Positions 9,589-18,733 of a DNA stretch of 64,000 bases are shown here, piece after piece. Within the stretch, counting starts at the first letter, position 1. Each line of letters opens with the position of its first letter. The position numbers were made by a program, and so were the translations under genes. Below the pieces are notes generated by a model. It saw nothing but the letters and a program-made list of their open reading frames with translations, did no database searches and had not been told where the DNA came from. The DNA is from Chloroflexota bacterium (lineage in GTDB: Bacteria > Chloroflexota > Anaerolineae > Aggregatilineales > Phototrophicaceae), in NCBI GenBank assembly GCA_011523515.1, contig WTGO01000049.1:1-64000 (forward strand). The letters are read 5' to 3'.

Positions 9589-9636
9589 ATGTTAGTAAGC
9601 ACAAGCAAGAAGGCCAAGAAGACCTGCACCCACTAA
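9589..9636 (+). CDS. lysine-rich leader peptide of the lysW operon
   Basis: A 15-codon frame encodes MLVSTSKKAKKTCTH and a TAA stop at 9634-9636. Four of 15 codons are Lys (AAG), grouped at 9607-9621 as KKAKK. The frame lies in the leader just before a terminator hairpin and the lysine biosynthesis operon, as expected for a ribosome-sensing attenuator peptide like those of the trp, his and leu operons. The Shine-Dalgarno sequence is weak (AAGTGA upstream). It is too short for ordinary gene finding; support comes from codon content, position and the competing RNA helices. Confidence 0.7.
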   Translation: MLVSTSKKAKKTCTH

Positions 9637-9699
9637 GTATGGGCTTGTTTGTGCTGACAAAAATCTACACACGCACCCGCCCATACGGCGGGTTTTTTT
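9614..9699 (+). promoter_or_regulatory. transcription attenuator: protector, antiterminator and terminator helices
   Basis: Three alternative pairings can be drawn. The terminator pairs CCCGCC (9676-9681) with GGCGGG (9687-9692), before seven T residues. The antiterminator pairs GTATGGGC (9637-9644) with GCCCATAC (9679-9686), 8 bp, extended by GTGC (9651-9654) with GCAC (9673-9676); this uses up the left terminator arm. The weaker protector pairs CCCA (9629-9632) with TGGG (9640-9643), plus GCA (9626-9628) with TGC (9652-9654). A ribosome stalled on the Lys codons leaves 9637-9644 free to form the antiterminator; one that reaches the stop covers it. This predicts high lysine-operon expression when charged lysyl-tRNA is scarce. 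Confidence 0.7.
9676..9699 (+). terminator. intrinsic terminator in the lysW leader
   Basis: A CCCGCC / GGCGGG stem of 6 bp with loop CATAC is followed by T7. It lies 35 bases upstream of the lysW start, so it must be conditional for the operon to be expressed from the leader. Confidence 0.85.
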
Positions 9700-9733
9700 G
9701 TTGCGGGGATTCGAGCATTTAGGAGTAGACAAA

Positions 9734-9910
9734 ATGACTGACGGAACACCACTTTGCCCGGAGTGCGACGCCGATGTCGACATGCCGCTTGACGCTATGG
9801 AAAACGAGCTGATTTCCTGCGCAGAATGCGGCATCGAACTGGAGATCATGAGTCTCGATCCGATCGAGCTGGAATTGGCGCCGGAAGTCGAAGAGGATTG
9901 GGGAGAATAA
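9734..9910 (+). CDS. lysW: lysine biosynthesis carrier protein LysW
   Basis: A 58-residue acidic carrier protein. Its C-terminal Glu is joined to the amino group of alpha-aminoadipate, which protects it and carries it through the later lysine steps. The zinc site uses C8, C11, C29 and C32 (CPEC and CAEC), and the protein ends with the diagnostic EDWGE. The ATG at 9734 is preceded by AGGAG. It is the first structural gene after the attenuator and lies five bases before lysX. Confidence 0.95.
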   Translation: MTDGTPLCPECDADVDMPLDAMENELISCAECGIELEIMSLDPIELELAPEVEEDWGE

Positions 9911-9915
9911 GCCGC

Positions 9916-10794
9916 ATGCGCGTCGCCCTGCTGGTCACCCATATTCGCGCCGAAGAAAAGCTGATACTGGCCGCCTTCAATAAACGCGACATCAGCCCGG
10001 ATATCATCCTGGACCGGGAATTGAATTTCGATATATCGCAGGGAAGCGAGCAGTTGGCGCCATCAGGCAGCGCCTGGAGCGCCTACGACTTGATCTTTGA
10101 ACGCTGCGTCAGCACCTCGCGCGGCATGGTCGCGCTGGCCGTGCTCAACAGCTGGGGCGTCCGCAGCTTCAATTCCTTTGAGACAGCAGCCATTTGCGCC
10201 GATAAAGTGCGCACGAGCATCGCGCTGACGCAGAGCGGCATCCCGCAGCCGCATACGCGCGTCGCCTTCACGCCGGACAGCGCCATGCAAGCCATTGAAG
10301 ATGTGAAATACCCGGCAGTGCTCAAACCAGTTACCGGTTCCTGGGGACGGCTGCTGGCGCGCGTGCACAATCGTGACAGCGCCGAAGCCATACTGGAACA
10401 TCGGCAAACGCTGGGCGATTACAATCATCACATTTATTACGTTCAAGAATATGTTGATAAACCCGGGCGTGATATCCGCGCCTTCGTCGTGGGCGATCGC
10501 ACCATCGCCGCCATCTACCGGGCGTCCAATCATTGGATTACCAACACCGCGCGCGGTGGCCAGGCGACCAATTGTCCGGTGACCGAGCAGCTGGATGAAA
10601 TCTGCGTGAAAGCGGCCGAAGCGGTCGGCGGCGGCATCCTGGCCATCGACCTGCTGGAAGATGCGCAAGGCAATTTTGTGGTTAACGAAATCAACCACAC
10701 AATGGAATTCCGCAATAGCAGCGAACCGACAGGCGTCGATATCGCCCAGGAAACCATCGACTATGTTATCGAACAGATCGAGGTAATCGCGTGA
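9916..10794 (+). CDS. lysX: LysW-alpha-aminoadipate ligase
   Basis: A 292-residue ATP-grasp ligase of the RimK group that joins alpha-aminoadipate to the LysW C-terminus. The central PAVLKPVTGSWGRLL (phosphate loop), QEYVDKPGRDIRAFVVG and the metal-binding VVNEINHTMEFRN segment are seen in order. The ATG at 9916 lies just after lysW; longer upstream frames overlap lysW and were rejected. The gene overlaps lysY by four bases (GTGA). Some LysX homologues also accept glutamate for arginine synthesis; with only one ligase visible, dual use cannot be excluded. Confidence 0.92.
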   Translation: MRVALLVTHIRAEEKLILAAFNKRDISPDIILDRELNFDISQGSEQLAPSGSAWSAYDLIFERCVSTSRGMVALAVLNSWGVRSFNSFETAAICADKVRTSIALTQSGIPQPHTRVAFTPDSAMQAIEDVKYPAVLKPVTGSWGRLLARVHNRDSAEAILEHRQTLGDYNHHIYYVQEYVDKPGRDIRAFVVGDRTIAAIYRASNHWITNTARGGQATNCPVTEQLDEICVKAAEAVGGGILAIDLLEDAQGNFVVNEINHTMEFRNSSEPTGVDIAQETIDYVIEQIEVIA

Positions 10795-11816
10795 TACAGG
10801 CGGGCATTGTCGGCGGCAGCGGCTACACCGGCGGCGAATTGCTGCGCCTGCTGCATTTTCACCCCCAGGTGGAAGTGGCGCAGATCACCAGCCGCGAGCA
10901 CGCCGGACGCTATATCCACAGCGTGCATCCCAATTTGCGCGGGGTATCCACACTCAAGTTCATCCATCCCGACGCCTTGCAAACCTGTGACCTGCTCTTC
11001 CTGGCGCTGCCGCACGGCACGCCCGCGCGCAGCATTGAGCGCTACGCCGGGCTGGCGCCGAAGTTGATTGATCTATCCGCCGACTTCCGGCTCGATTCCG
11101 CTTCAGCCTATGAGCGCTGGTACGGCGAAGCGCATCCAGCACCGGACTGGCTCGAGCGCTTCGTCTACGGCTTGCCCGAGGCCAATCGCGAACGGCTCAG
11201 CGGCGCGGACTACATCAGCGGCGTGGGCTGCAACGCCACGGCTGTCAACCTCGCCCTCGGTCCCCTGGCGCGCGCGGGCCTTTTGCAGCGCGCCGTCATC
11301 GAAATCAAAGTGGGGTCGTCCGAGGGCGGCAATAAGAGCAATGCCAGCTCACATCATCCCGTGCGCAGCGGCGCCGTGCGCACCTACAAAGCGACCGGAC
11401 ACCGCCACTTGGCCGAAGTGCAGATGATCCTGGGCTGCGACCTGCCCATTCATTTTGCCGTGACCGCCATTGAGATGGTGCGGGGTGTCCACTTGCTGGC
11501 GCACTGCTATCTTGAGAAAAGCGTGGTCGAGCGCGACATCTGGCGCTTGTACCGCGGACAGTACCGCGACGAACCCTTCATCCGGCTGGTCAGCGGCAAA
11601 GTGGGCCTGCATCGCCTGCCCGAGCCGCGCGTGGTCGCCGGAACCAACTATTGCGATATCGGCTTCGAGCTGGACGACGATGGCGAACACCTGGTGGTGG
11701 TCGCCGCGCTGGACAATCTGGGCAAAGGCGCGGCCGGCAGCGCAGTACAGGCAATGAATCTGATGGTCGAATTCGACGAAACGACCGGGCTGGAATTCCC
11801 GGGTATCTATCCCTGA
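10791..11816 (+). CDS. lysY: LysW-aminoadipyl phosphate reductase (ArgC family)
   Basis: A 341-residue NADPH-dependent reductase that converts LysW-aminoadipyl-6-phosphate to the semialdehyde. GIVGGSGYTGGELLRLL is the nucleotide-binding loop at the N-terminus. The catalytic Cys lies in GVGCNATAVN; the GCNA form is usual for LysY, while ArgC proteins have GCYPT-like motifs. HHPVRSGAVRTYKATGHRH follows. The start is GTG overlapping the lysX stop. Its position, motif and neighbours favour lysine over arginine synthesis. Confidence 0.92.
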   Translation: MIQAGIVGGSGYTGGELLRLLHFHPQVEVAQITSREHAGRYIHSVHPNLRGVSTLKFIHPDALQTCDLLFLALPHGTPARSIERYAGLAPKLIDLSADFRLDSASAYERWYGEAHPAPDWLERFVYGLPEANRERLSGADYISGVGCNATAVNLALGPLARAGLLQRAVIEIKVGSSEGGNKSNASSHHPVRSGAVRTYKATGHRHLAEVQMILGCDLPIHFAVTAIEMVRGVHLLAHCYLEKSVVERDIWRLYRGQYRDEPFIRLVSGKVGLHRLPEPRVVAGTNYCDIGFELDDDGEHLVVVAALDNLGKGAAGSAVQAMNLMVEFDETTGLEFPGIYP

Positions 11817-11829
11817 GGCGCGGTTTCTG

Positions 11830-12639
11830 ATGTCGAGCACGGATCTTTTGGTAGTCAAATTGGGCGGCGGCGCCGGGCTGGATCTGGCGGCCGCCTGCGA
11901 TGACCTGGCGAATGTCTCAAGGCAGCGTCCGTTGGTCGTCGTCCACGGCGTCAGCGACGCCATGAATCAGCTCTGCGCCCAACTGGGCATTGAAGTGCAG
12001 ACGCTGACATCGCCTTCCGGGCATAGTTCGCGCTACACGCCGCCGGCGATCCGCGATGTCTACGTCCGCGCGGCTGAGCACACCAACACGGAATTGGTCA
12101 CTCAGCTGCGCCGGCGCGATGTCTCGGCTATCGGCTTCGTCAGCGACAGTGTCGTCGTGCGCGGCAGCCGCAAGCAAGCCATCCGCGCCGTCATGAACGG
12201 CAGAATCCGCATGGTGCGCGACGACCACAGCGGCGCCATAAAGAGCATTGAAACGGCAGCCTTGCGCGAGGCGCTGGCGCAAAGCCAGGTTCCAGTGCTA
12301 CCACCGATGGCAATCAGCGAGGACGGCCTGCTAAATGTCGACGGCGACCGAGCGGGCGCGGCAGTGGCCGGCGGGCTGGGCGCCAGCGCGCTCGTGATTT
12401 TGAGCAATGTGCGCGGGCTGTACCGCGACTTCCCCGCCGAAGACAGTTTCGTTGAGCAGGTCGCTTTACCACAGATTGACAGCGCGCTGGACTGGGCGCA
12501 GGGCCGCATGAAACGCAAGGTGCTGGCGGCGCAGGAAGCGCTTGCTCAAGACGTGGCGACCGTCATCATCGGCGACGGTCGCGTCAGCGATCCGGTGTCG
12601 AACGCGCTGCGCGGAGAGGGCACGAGGTTTACAGCATGA
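11830..12639 (+). CDS. lysZ: LysW-aminoadipate kinase (ArgB family)
   Basis: A 269-residue amino-acid kinase that phosphorylates the side-chain carboxylate of LysW-bound aminoadipate. The N-terminal VVKLGGGAG and VVVHGVSD motifs bind ATP phosphates, and NVDGDRAGAAVAGGLGA with ILSNVRGLYRDF lies in the nucleotide domain. The order X-Y-Z-J-K with lysW is the standard gene order. The stop overlaps the lysJ start (ATGA), consistent with coupled translation. Confidence 0.92.
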   Translation: MSSTDLLVVKLGGGAGLDLAAACDDLANVSRQRPLVVVHGVSDAMNQLCAQLGIEVQTLTSPSGHSSRYTPPAIRDVYVRAAEHTNTELVTQLRRRDVSAIGFVSDSVVVRGSRKQAIRAVMNGRIRMVRDDHSGAIKSIETAALREALAQSQVPVLPPMAISEDGLLNVDGDRAGAAVAGGLGASALVILSNVRGLYRDFPAEDSFVEQVALPQIDSALDWAQGRMKRKVLAAQEALAQDVATVIIGDGRVSDPVSNALRGEGTRFTA

Positions 12640-13802
12640 TTGAAACAGCGACCGTTTACGAAATCGAAGACCGCTATGGTTCCGGCGCTTACGGCAAACG
12701 GCCGACGGCTTTGGTCCGCGGGCAAGGCGTTTACGTCTGGGACATTGACGGCAATCGCTACCTGGACGCGACCAGCGGCCAGGGCGTCGCCGCGCTGGGA
12801 CACTGCCACCCGGCGGTAGTGGCCGCGGTCAACGCTCAAGCGAGTACGCTGGTATCGATTCACGAGTCATTCTATAACGACCGCCGCGCCGAGCTGTATA
12901 CGCTGCTGGACAGCATCACGCCCGCGGATCTCAGCCGCTTCTTCTTGTGCAACAGCGGCGCGGAAGCGATCGAGGGCGCGCTCAAGGTCGCCAAATTGCT
13001 CACAGGCCGCGTAGGCATCGTCGCCGCCAAACGCGCCTTTCACGGCCGCACGACCGGCGCCCTGTCCATGACCTGGACGCCGAAATACCGCAAGCCTTTC
13101 CAGGCTTGGCTGCCAGCTGTCGAGCACGTCGCCTTTAACGATATCGCCGCCGCTGTCGAGGCGATCACGCCGGAAACCGCCGCAGTCGTCGTGGAGTCAG
13201 TTCAGGGCGAAGGCGGCGTACACCCGGCCGCGAACGAGTATTTGCAGGCTCTGCGCGAACGTTGCGACCAGACCGGCGCCATGCTGATTATGGATGAAAT
13301 TCAGACCGGCTTCGGTCGCACGGGCAAGTGGTTCGGCTTCGAGCACGCCGACATCCTGCCTGACATCGTCGCGCTGGCCAAGGCCATCGGCGGCGGACTG
13401 CCCATGGGCGCAGTCTGCTGGCGCGCCGCTCACGGTCCGATCGACCGCGCCAGCCATGGCAGCACCTTCGGCGGGAATCCGCTGGCCTGCGCCGCGGCCA
13501 TCGCTACCCTGACAACCATCCGCGACCAGGGAATTGTGGAGCGCGCCCGCAGCCATGGCGAATGGCTAATGGACGAGCTGGCTGCGCTAAACCTGCGCGG
13601 CGTGCGCAGTGTGCGTGGGCGCGGGCTGATGATCGGCCTGGAGTTACGCGGGAGAGTTACGCCGGTGTTGAAGGCGCTTCAGGAGCAGGGCGTACTGGCG
13701 CTTCCCGCCGGCCTGAACACTTTGCGCTTGCTGCCGCCGCTGAACATCAGCCGAGACGAACTGCGCGCTGTCATGGACGCGATCCACGAGGTATTGGACT
13801 GA
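12636..13802 (+). CDS. lysJ: LysW-gamma-lysine aminotransferase (ArgD family)
   Basis: A 388-residue class III pyridoxal-phosphate aminotransferase that converts the LysW-bound semialdehyde to LysW-lysine using glutamate. NSGAEAIEGALKVAK, VVVESVQGEGGV and the cofactor lysine K249 in VALAKAIGGGLPMGA are present, with GSTFGGNPLACAA behind. It overlaps lysZ by four bases and ends three bases before lysK. Without context it could be read as acetylornithine aminotransferase; the LysW setting decides the name. Confidence 0.92.
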   Translation: MIETATVYEIEDRYGSGAYGKRPTALVRGQGVYVWDIDGNRYLDATSGQGVAALGHCHPAVVAAVNAQASTLVSIHESFYNDRRAELYTLLDSITPADLSRFFLCNSGAEAIEGALKVAKLLTGRVGIVAAKRAFHGRTTGALSMTWTPKYRKPFQAWLPAVEHVAFNDIAAAVEAITPETAAVVVESVQGEGGVHPAANEYLQALRERCDQTGAMLIMDEIQTGFGRTGKWFGFEHADILPDIVALAKAIGGGLPMGAVCWRAAHGPIDRASHGSTFGGNPLACAAAIATLTTIRDQGIVERARSHGEWLMDELAALNLRGVRSVRGRGLMIGLELRGRVTPVLKALQEQGVLALPAGLNTLRLLPPLNISRDELRAVMDAIHEVLD

Positions 13803-13805
13803 GCC

Positions 13806-14849
13806 ATGACCGCTATCCGCGCCGAGCAACTGCTGCGCGACCTTGTCAGCATCGCCAGCCCCTCCTGTCACGAGGCAGAAGCGTCCGCCTGTCTGGCGGA
13901 TTGGATGCGCGCCAACGACTATGACCGGGCCTATGTGGACGAGGTCGGCAACGCCGTCGGCATCATCGGCGACGGCCCGCGCGAAGTCGCGCTACTCGGG
14001 CATATCGACACCTTTCCCGGATTTCCGACGGTACGCCGTGAGGGGCGGCTCTTGTACGGCCGGGGCGCGGTGGACGCCAAAGGCCCGCTGTGTACCTTCG
14101 CCGTCGCGGCGCGTCAGGCTACCCTGCCTGACGACATCCGAGTCGTCGTCATCGGCGCAGTGGAAGAAGAAGCGGCCACCAGCCGCGGCGCGCGTCATGT
14201 GCTCGACCGCTTACAGCCCGACTTCTGCGTGATCGGCGAGCCATCGCATTGGGATCGCATCACGCTGGGCTACAAGGGTCGGCTGCTGCTCGACTGGCGC
14301 TGGGAAGGCGGCCTTGCGCACAGCGCCGGCGATGCGCCCAGCCCAGCCGAACGCGCCCTGGACTACTGGGGGCTCGTAAAAGCGCAGAGCGATCAACATA
14401 ACCAGGGGATCGACTCGATATTCGCCCGCCTGGATGCATCGCTGCGGGATATCAATACCTGGCAGGTTGGCGTGAACGGCGTGGCGGAAATGACGATCGG
14501 GCTGAGACTGCCGCCGGGCGTCAGCCCCGCGTGTCTGGAAGAGCAGCTACCACCGGCGGACGGCGCGTCGCTCACTGCTCGCGGGGCTGAACGGGCCTAT
14601 ACTGGCGACCGCAACAGCGAGCTCAGCCGTCAGTTTCGCCGCGCGATACGGGCGGCCGGCGGCGTCCCGCGCTTCCTGTACAAAACCGGCACATCCGATA
14701 TGAATGTGGTCGGCCCACATTGGAATTGTCCAATCCTGGCCTACGGACCGGGCGATTCCGCCCTGGACCATACGCCAAATGAGCATATTGATCTCGATGA
14801 GTATTTGCAGGCGATAGACGTGCTGTCTGCCGTGCTCGAATCACTTTAA
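13806..14849 (+). CDS. lysK: LysW-lysine hydrolase (M20 peptidase family)
   Basis: A 347-residue zinc hydrolase that releases free lysine and regenerates Lys[11 protein letters not shown] supplies a metal His and catalytic Asp, [11 protein letters not shown] the bridging Asp, [15 protein letters not shown] the catalytic Glu pair, and FCVIGEPS the next ligand. It is the last of the five carrier-protein enzymes and is followed after 18 bases by homocitrate synthase on the same strand. Confidence 0.92.
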
Positions 14850-14867
14850 GTGAGAAGTGGCAACCCC

Positions 14868-16019
14868 ATGCACAACCGAAACATTCCTGTCCAAGGCTTC
14901 AACTTCATCGACTCGACTTTGCGCGAAGGCGAGCAATTTCGCGGTACGCATTTCACAATTGACGACAAGCGCGAAATCGCCCAGCTGCTCGATCGCTTTG
15001 GCGTCGAATACATGGAGCTTTCGACGCCGGTCGCCAGCCCGCAGAGCGCCGATGCCATCAGGTCGCTGGCCGACATGAAGCGCAACTTTCGGCTATTGAC
15101 GCATATCCGCGCCAATATCGACGACGCCAAGCTGGCCGTCGATTGCGGCGTCGACGGGGTTGATGTCTACGTCGGCACCTCCGATTACATGCGCCAGTTC
15201 AGCCACGGCAAGAGCTTGAAGCAAGTCATCGAAATCGGCCAGGAAGTCATCGCCTACCTCAGGAACAGCCGGGTCGAAACGCGCTTCAGCACGGAAGATA
15301 CCTTCCGCAGCAACTTCGCCGATGTGATGACGGTTTACCGCGCTATGGATTTGGCGGGCGTGGATCGCGTTGGCGTGGCCGATACAGTCGGTGTGGCCGA
15401 TCCGCTGCAGACCTACAATCTCATCTCCAATCTGCGCGATGTCGTCGCCTGCGATATCGAGTTCCACGGCCACAACGACAGCAGTTGCGCTGTGGCCAAT
15501 GCCTTTGCCGCCTTGCAAGCCGGCGCAACGCATATCGACACCACAGTGCTGGGCATCGGCGAACGCAACGGGATTACGCCCATGGGCGCCTTGATCGGCC
15601 GACTCTACACCTGTGACAAGTCGCTGGTATCGAAATACGACCTGCCGCTATTGGCGGAAATCGAAAGGGTCGTCGCCGCCAAAGTCGGCATTGACATACC
15701 CTTCAATACGCCGATCACCGGCGATGTCGCCTTCCATCACAAAGCCGGCGTGCATACAAACGCCGTTCTGCAGAATCCGACTACTTACGAGGCAGTCGAC
15801 CCGGAAGACTTCGGTATGTCGCGCATTATCGACGTAGCGCACCGGCTTGTCGGACGCAACGCCATTCGCGATCGCGCCGCCTGCCTGGGCATCGACTTGC
15901 CCGACGATACACTGCGTTCGGTGACGGACCAGGTCAAATCGTTGGCCGATGAGCGGCAAATCACGCTGGACGATGTTGATCGTATGCTCAGCGACCTGGC
16001 CCTGCCGGTTGAGGATTAG
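14868..16019 (+). CDS. lysS: homocitrate synthase
   Basis: Condenses 2-oxoglutarate with acetyl-CoA, the first step of the alpha-aminoadipate route. The 383-residue protein has the family start FIDSTLREGEQF (metal and substrate binding), the HGHNDSSCAVANAF metal His motif and GIGERNGITPMGAL, which is typical of homocitrate rather than isopropylmalate synthases. The ATG at 14868, with GAGAAG about ten bases upstream, is preferred over a GTG directly after the lysK stop. The first enzyme of the pathway is thus last in this transcript block. Confidence 0.9.
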   Translation: MHNRNIPVQGFNFIDSTLREGEQFRGTHFTIDDKREIAQLLDRFGVEYMELSTPVASPQSADAIRSLADMKRNFRLLTHIRANIDDAKLAVDCGVDGVDVYVGTSDYMRQFSHGKSLKQVIEIGQEVIAYLRNSRVETRFSTEDTFRSNFADVMTVYRAMDLAGVDRVGVADTVGVADPLQTYNLISNLRDVVACDIEFHGHNDSSCAVANAFAALQAGATHIDTTVLGIGERNGITPMGALIGRLYTCDKSLVSKYDLPLLAEIERVVAAKVGIDIPFNTPITGDVAFHHKAGVHTNAVLQNPTTYEAVDPEDFGMSRIIDVAHRLVGRNAIRDRAACLGIDLPDDTLRSVTDQVKSLADERQITLDDVDRMLSDLALPVED

Positions 16020-17434: not shown

Positions 17435-18733
17435 ATGACTATGACCTTGACCGAGAAACTGCTGACGCGCGCGAGTGGGCACTCAAGCGTCAAGCCGGGC
17501 GATATTGTCGTTGTCGAGCCTGACGTCGTGCTCAGCCACGACAATTCCGCGGCCATCTGGGAGATATTCCAGCAACTGCCGCAGGGCCAGATAAAGCACC
17601 CCGACCGGCTCGCGATCACGCTGGATCACGCCGTGCCGCCGCCCACAGCCAAGCACGCGCAGAATCACGCGCAGATCCGGCAGTTGGTTCAAGCACAGGG
17701 CATCAGCAACTTTTACGAAGTGGGCCGCGGCATCTGCCACCAGGTTCTGTGCGAGGAAGGTGTGGTCGGGCCCGGACTGTGCCTGCTGGGCGCAGACAGC
17801 CATAGCCCGCATTGTGGCTGGCTGGGCGCATTTGGCGCCGGCATAGGTCGCAGCGAAGTGGCGGCGCTCTGGGCCACCGGCGAGCTTTGGCTGCGCGTGC
17901 CGGACACCATACGCATCCTGCTTACTGGCAAGCTCAGGCAGGGCGTGACGACCAAAGACCTAACCATTCAGTTGATCGGTCAGCTCTCATCCGATGGCGC
18001 GACGTATATGGCGGTCGAATTTGCCGGCGCCGGCATCAGCAGCTTGTCGCCGGATGCGCGCGCCGTGCTGACCAATATGATGGCTGAGATGGGCGCCAAG
18101 AATGCTTGCATGGTGCCCGATGCGGTCACCTGGGATTGGCTGGATCAGAGCCTTGCCCGCACTCGACCGCAGGATTCGGAGGAACGCCTTGCGTACTTCC
18201 GTGAAAGCGCGCTTTATCCCGACGCGGACGCGGCTTACGCGCTGGAACATCACATTCAACTCAATGAAATCGAGCCGATGGTGTCGTGCCCGCACACGGT
18301 CGACAATGTCAAAGCGCTGTCGTCGATCGAGCACACGCGGGTTGACGTCGGCTTCATCGGCACTTGCACCAACGGACGCCTGGAAGATATCGCCAGCGCG
18401 GCCGAAATCGTGCGCGGCAAACGGCTGCAGCGACGCCTTGTGGTCATTCCGGCCTCCTCGATGGTGCTGCGCGACGCGGTAGAGGCGGGCCATGTAGCGA
18501 CTCTGCTCGATGCCGGCGCCACGATCGGCACACCGGGCTGCGGCCCTTGCATGGGCAATCACATGGGTGTGCTGGCGCCGGGCGAGGTCTGCATCAGCAG
18601 CGCCAACCGCAATTTCCGCGGCCGCATGGGCCAGCGCGATGCCGAAATCTACCTGGCGAATCCAGCCGTGGTGGCGGCCAGCTGCGTCGCCGGCTACCTG
18701 GTACACCCGTCGGAAGTGACCGGTGGCGAGTAA
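17435..18733 (+). CDS. homoaconitase / 3-isopropylmalate dehydratase large subunit
   Basis: A 432-residue aconitase-family large subunit with three iron-sulfur Cys, one in [13 protein letters not shown] and two in [14 protein letters not shown]. It also has [20 protein letters not shown] and [12 protein letters not shown] near the end. The family covers isopropylmalate (LeuC) and homocitrate/homoaconitate (LysT/HacA) substrates. Next to homocitrate synthase and the LysW genes, with no other leu gene in view, homoaconitase is preferred; dual use is possible. The small-subunit gene follows after two bases. Confidence 0.85.

Follow-up and report, generated by a model that had tools for sequence, protein, structure and literature searches.

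A predicted lysine-codon attenuator before the carrier-protein lysine operon of a Chloroflexota bacterium, frequently doubled across its order

In a 64,000-nucleotide stretch of a Chloroflexota genome (contig WTGO01000049.1 of assembly GCA_011523515.1; hereafter the window), we identified a short lysine-rich open reading frame, an intrinsic terminator and a competing antiterminator helix directly before lysW. By far the best explanation of this arrangement, and one that we hold with high confidence from sequence comparison and fold modeling, is ribosome-mediated lysine attenuation of the lysW-lysX-lysY-lysZ-lysJ-lysK-homocitrate synthase operon, with charged lysyl-tRNA as the sensed signal. 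Leader-peptide attenuation is a known kind of control, familiar above all from Proteobacteria; here, in Chloroflexota, it very probably acts on the carrier-protein lysine pathway. Below we describe the anatomy of the attenuator, its conservation, the coevolution of its arms and its predicted fold states; the comparative support for a lysine attenuator in Chloroflexota is unusually strong. The genes that follow form a nearly complete carrier-protein lysine operon:

9734–9910, + strand: lysW, amino-group carrier protein with C-terminal EDWGE (TIGR01206, 56.2 bits; cut-off 53.2)
9916–10794, + strand: lysX (TIGR02144, 323.5 bits; cut-off 275.6)
10791–11816, + strand: lysY, ArgC-like reductase (TIGR01850; the LysY role is inferred from context)
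11830–12639, + strand: lysZ, [LysW]-aminoadipate kinase (NF010659, over cut-off)
12636–13802, + strand: lysJ, aminotransferase (best match NF042418 LysJ, below its cut-off; TIGR00707, over cut-off)
13806–14849, + strand: lysK, [LysW]-lysine hydrolase (NF003367, over cut-off)
14850–16019, + strand: homocitrate synthase (TIGR02146, over cut-off)
17435–18733, + strand: homoaconitase-type large subunit (NF001614 and TIGR01343, over cut-off)

A gene on the opposite strand lies between the operon and the homoaconitase-type gene, upstream of which no Lys leader was seen. The elements before lysW are as follows:

9589–9636, + strand: leader ORF encoding MLVSTSKKAKKTCTH, with ATG at 9589 and TAA at 9634–9636
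9598–9609, + strand: arm 1 of the outer protector helix, AGCACAAGCAAG, which includes the first Lys codon and pairs with 9644–9655 (12 bp, one G–U)
9607–9621, + strand: Lys-Lys-Ala-Lys-Lys codons, the proposed lysine sensor (Lys codons at 9607–9612 and 9616–9621)
9629–9632, + strand: inner protector arm CCCA in the codons before the stop, pairing with TGGG at 9640–9643 in the consensus fold
9637–9644, + strand: antiterminator 5′ arm GTATGGGC, directly 3′ of the stop codon
9644–9655, + strand: arm 2 of the outer protector helix, CTTGTTTGTGCT, partner of 9598–9609
9676–9699, + strand: intrinsic terminator between the leader ORF and lysW, with a 6-bp GC stem, loop CATAC and seven Ts
9679–9686, + strand: antiterminator 3′ arm GCCCATAC, overlapping the left arm and loop of the terminator

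The terminator stem pairs CCCGCC (9676–9681) with GGCGGG (9687–9692) and is followed by the T-run (9693–9699); a consensus scan of the window recovered it as one of two sites, against 0.2 expected. The two antiterminator arms are perfectly complementary over their 8 bp. An earlier sequence-only reading of this DNA had described the leader peptide with its four Lys codons and the intrinsic terminator behind it, and we found all of these at the positions it gave. Taken as a single sequence, the region as a whole had an unremarkable fold energy (z = −0.98); the role of chance was therefore assessed by comparison, and the evidence for the element is comparative. We found no clear Shine–Dalgarno sequence before the leader ATG, and a consensus promoter search upstream of the leader identified none. 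When a sequence model of the leader was run across the bacterium's own genome, the leader before lysW was the sole convincing match. Weak second matches to the model, on contig C103 of the same genome and in eight other genomes (G052, G057, G046, G034, G049, G043, G005 and G027), lay within or beside unrelated genes and were taken as chance.

Within the genus, the element stood directly before lysW in all 34 genomes sampled. The Lys codons at leader positions 7, 8, 10 and 11 were kept in 135 of 136 cases, with AAG and AAA exchanged, and Arg was found at none of the 136. Residue 9 was Ala or Val, and most other leader residues varied. The spacing between Lys codons and stop was constant and the stop position identical in all 34 leaders, but the stop codon itself was TGA in 14, TAA in 13 and TAG in 7; a fixed stop position that uses three different codons argues for selection on translation. 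The terminator was invariant. In the antiterminator, 93.6% of cells paired, with changes on both sides: double-changed cells numbered 16, in comparison with 6.0 ± 1.8 in shuffles, and the pairing scored 0.210, slid versions reaching no more than 0.047. RNAalifold did not report this long-range helix in the genus alignment, as it chose the terminator and the inner protector, and we therefore scored the named structure directly. Complementarity, overlap and covariation thus bear out the earlier proposal of an 8-bp antiterminator (9637–9644 with 9679–9686) that excludes the terminator; the alignment of homologous leaders that had been suggested as a check found the Lys codons and the terminator kept and the antiterminator changed on both sides.

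We extended the comparison to the regions upstream of lysW in other genera and families of the order, giving 122 loci including those of the genus. At this level the sequences have been largely replaced and differ widely between families. We counted Lys-clustered ORFs followed by a terminator and found them in 34 of 34 loci of the genus, 48 of 51 in the other genera of the family (31 with two), 10 of 12 in family f3 (9 with two), 7 of 7 in f8 (7 with two), 4 of 11 in f7, 3 of 5 in f2 and 0 of 2 in f6. Lys clusters (at least four Lys in eight codons) were present in 80% of the 122 loci and in 0% on the reverse strand. Lys was the sole strongly clustered amino acid, the figure for Arg being 7%, and the order-level motif contained 11 Arg and 620 Lys codons, a count biased by the picking of ORFs. 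Across representative loci, which gave 61 units, the stop-codon arm and the terminator of the same unit paired at a mean of −17.8 kcal/mol, in comparison with −12.1 ± 0.4 kcal/mol for permuted partners (0 of 5,000 permutations), the permutation tests taking loci as exchangeable and not fully removing relatedness. In promoter-proximal units the antiterminator arm begins at about the stop codon; among lysW-proximal units, the arm of many overlaps the stop together with the two codons before it (Ser-Gly-stop, TCTGGATAG).

The leader also contains two nested protector helices. The inner one, a weak hairpin of 9629–9632 with 9640–9643, lies inside the 12-bp helix formed by 9598–9609 and 9644–9655, for which we computed −16.4 kcal/mol as a duplex and −20.4 kcal/mol as a whole hairpin. 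The weak protector near the stop codon, as noted in the sequence-only reading, is real and conserved, but the main protector is the longer helix reaching into the Lys codons, which that reading did not mention. The inner helix was kept in the consensus fold of the genus, and its order-level counterpart was matched by none of 5,000 permutations (31 units, with loci treated as exchangeable and relatedness not fully removed). The order-level pairing of the Lys codon region with the segment after the stop had an energy of −20.5 kcal/mol, against −17.7 ± 0.42 kcal/mol when permuted (0 of 5,000). In the genus the register of the 12-bp helix drifts and 73% of cells pair; no compensatory changes were seen in it among the 34 genomes. 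The 1:2 hairpin of trp leaders acts as a pause hairpin, and by analogy the outer protector may also be one.

To relate ribosome position to folding, we deleted the stretch of RNA that a ribosome would cover and folded what remained of each of the 34 leaders. Without a ribosome the terminator formed with a mean probability of 0.58; this and the following values are equilibrium probabilities of nested folds and take in neither pseudoknots nor kinetics. When the A site held the first Lys codon, the mean fell to 0.10, and 29 of the 34 leaders were below 0.2; at the last Lys codon it was 0.56, and with the ribosome at the stop codon it rose to 0.99, all 34 exceeding 0.8. Shuffling the spacer raised the probability at the first Lys codon to 0.93. 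The window's own leader gave 0.00 when stalled and 0.98 at the stop, and only 24 of the 61 order-level units switched by more than 0.3. In the model, then, the position of the ribosome decides between the two folds, in agreement with the earlier suggestion that stalling frees the antiterminator arm and a ribosome at the TAA covers it. A pseudoknot combining the outer protector with the antiterminator would be sterically possible.

We infer that the leader is translated, that its translation is coupled to transcription, that ribosomes stall on its Lys codons and that the operon responds to lysine. When charged Lys-tRNA is scarce, the leader ribosome would stall at the Lys codons (9607–9621) and cover arm 1, so that the protector helix would stay open. 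The freed arm after the stop codon (9637–9644) would then pair with 9679–9686 and sequester the terminator's left arm, so that RNA polymerase would continue into lysW. With ample lysine, the ribosome would reach the stop codon and mask the antiterminator arm, allowing the terminator to form.

Among other readings of the region, the leader could encode an arrest peptide or cause a charge-dependent stall, the basic nascent SKKAKKT slowing the ribosome independently of lysine supply, perhaps together with another signal. The well-kept KKxKK spacing and the conserved codons near the stop are in line with this; the conserved end codons, however, pair with the antiterminator arm and are thus explained by the RNA. 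We regard this reading as improbable, as the equally charged Arg is absent from the Lys positions in the genus and rare in the order, the flanking residues vary, and lysine is the product of the operon.

Less probable still is that a constitutive terminator serves the upstream phosphotransferase-like gene, the ORF being meaningless and lysW having a promoter after the terminator. This would account for the strength of the terminator and for the lack of a consensus promoter upstream of the leader, but 34 nt between the T-run and lysW leave scant room for a promoter, and the Lys codons, the stop position and the antiterminator coevolve with the terminator both in the 34 genomes and across families. 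We give hardly any credence to a tRNA- or ligand-binding RNA, that is, a T-box or a lysine riboswitch in place of a translated leader. T-boxes do precede lysW in other Chloroflexota families and served as a positive control, yet in the window we obtained no Rfam match to the T-box (RF00230; stem I with specifier loop, UGGNACC) and none at the gathering threshold to the lysine riboswitch (L box), nor did any other Rfam family score above its threshold at any place in the window. Here, moreover, a short leader carries an ORF selected as a coding frame.

Two Lys leader peptides in tandem, each with its own terminator, were present at 47 of the 122 order-level loci within 620 nt before lysW; examples are L042 (G054), L169 (G364), L181 (G394), L202 (G397) and L048 (G051), among others. 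In the window's genus, one genome (G033, locus L010) shows a second Lys leader by eye, and nearly all of the genus is without one. In other Chloroflexota we found Rfam T-boxes before lysW, two of them well above threshold and several slightly short of it, at L137, L140, L142, L145, L147 and L148 of family f35 and at L054 and L113. Those of f35 are mostly two in tandem, and the specifier position of the lysW T-boxes, as read from alignments, is AAG or AAA. We consider it likely that the lysine operon of the order is often under two serial leader-peptide attenuators, each made up of a separate Lys-rich peptide, antiterminator and terminator, which would be two independent readings of one signal, and that another family has converged on the same solution through tandem Lys T-boxes. 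To our knowledge, leader-peptide attenuators for the same signal in series have not been described. In family f61 (L055, L064 and L076), a conserved strong hairpin, CGGCGGTGAGCCC..GCTCACCGCCG, lies upstream of lysW and has no Rfam match; it is possibly another type of attenuator.

Like the present element, the trp, his, leu, thr and ilv attenuators of Proteobacteria have a short ORF in which codons for the operon's product are clustered, an antiterminator and a terminator as alternative helices, and a stop codon positioned so that the ribosome, on completing the leader, blocks the antiterminator. They differ in that here lysine would be sensed and the host is a member of Chloroflexota, and in that here the antiterminator arm directly follows the stop codon and lies beside, not inside, the outer protector arm, with one base shared. 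Tsubouchi et al. (J Biol Chem, 2005) reportedly described leader-peptide attenuation of the lysine biosynthetic cluster of Thermus thermophilus, a case from a different phylum with the same carrier-protein aminoadipate pathway and, by that account, the same principle; given that case, the earlier view that the carrier-protein lysine pathway offered no precedent is probably wrong. The riboswitch or repressor control that had been expected in Chloroflexota was not what other families showed, T-boxes being found before the operon instead. These T-boxes share with the leaders the operon and the expected signal, and are often in tandem, but in them the tRNA is sensed by RNA without translation. The doubled attenuators and doubled T-boxes together form a natural experiment, both on why one amino-acid signal should be read twice in succession and on the exchange between leader-peptide and T-box control of a single operon. 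Salmonella mgtCBR resembles the window's relatives in that two leader ORFs, with their attenuators, follow one another; its tandem attenuators sense different signals, ATP and proline, and have been termed a singular example (PMC3641672), whereas in the window's relatives both leaders carry Lys codons. Comparative prediction of leader-peptide attenuators outside Proteobacteria has also yielded proposed His leaders in Firmicutes, there before histidine operons (PMC9413887).

A search for other amino-acid attenuators in the same genome covered four amino-acid genes. A Leu/Ile/Val-rich leader, RNRLHNSLLILVLVIVLGIVCGL, precedes ilvE-ilvB on contig C28, upstream of 29001 on the minus strand (L310, L327). 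Its layout is that found before lysW, with a terminator and an antiterminator arm after the stop codon, and similar LVLVLVIISGL leaders occur in genomes of the same genus; it is a probable branched-chain amino acid attenuator. The trpE gene is preceded by a T-box of 118 bits on contig C107 (L318:3038–3287, minus strand), and the genome thus seems to use T-boxes as well as leader peptides. One record titled Pleurocapsa minor, a cyanobacterium (L248/L186), has its lysW placed as in genome G361 of the window's family and is probably a mislabelled bin.
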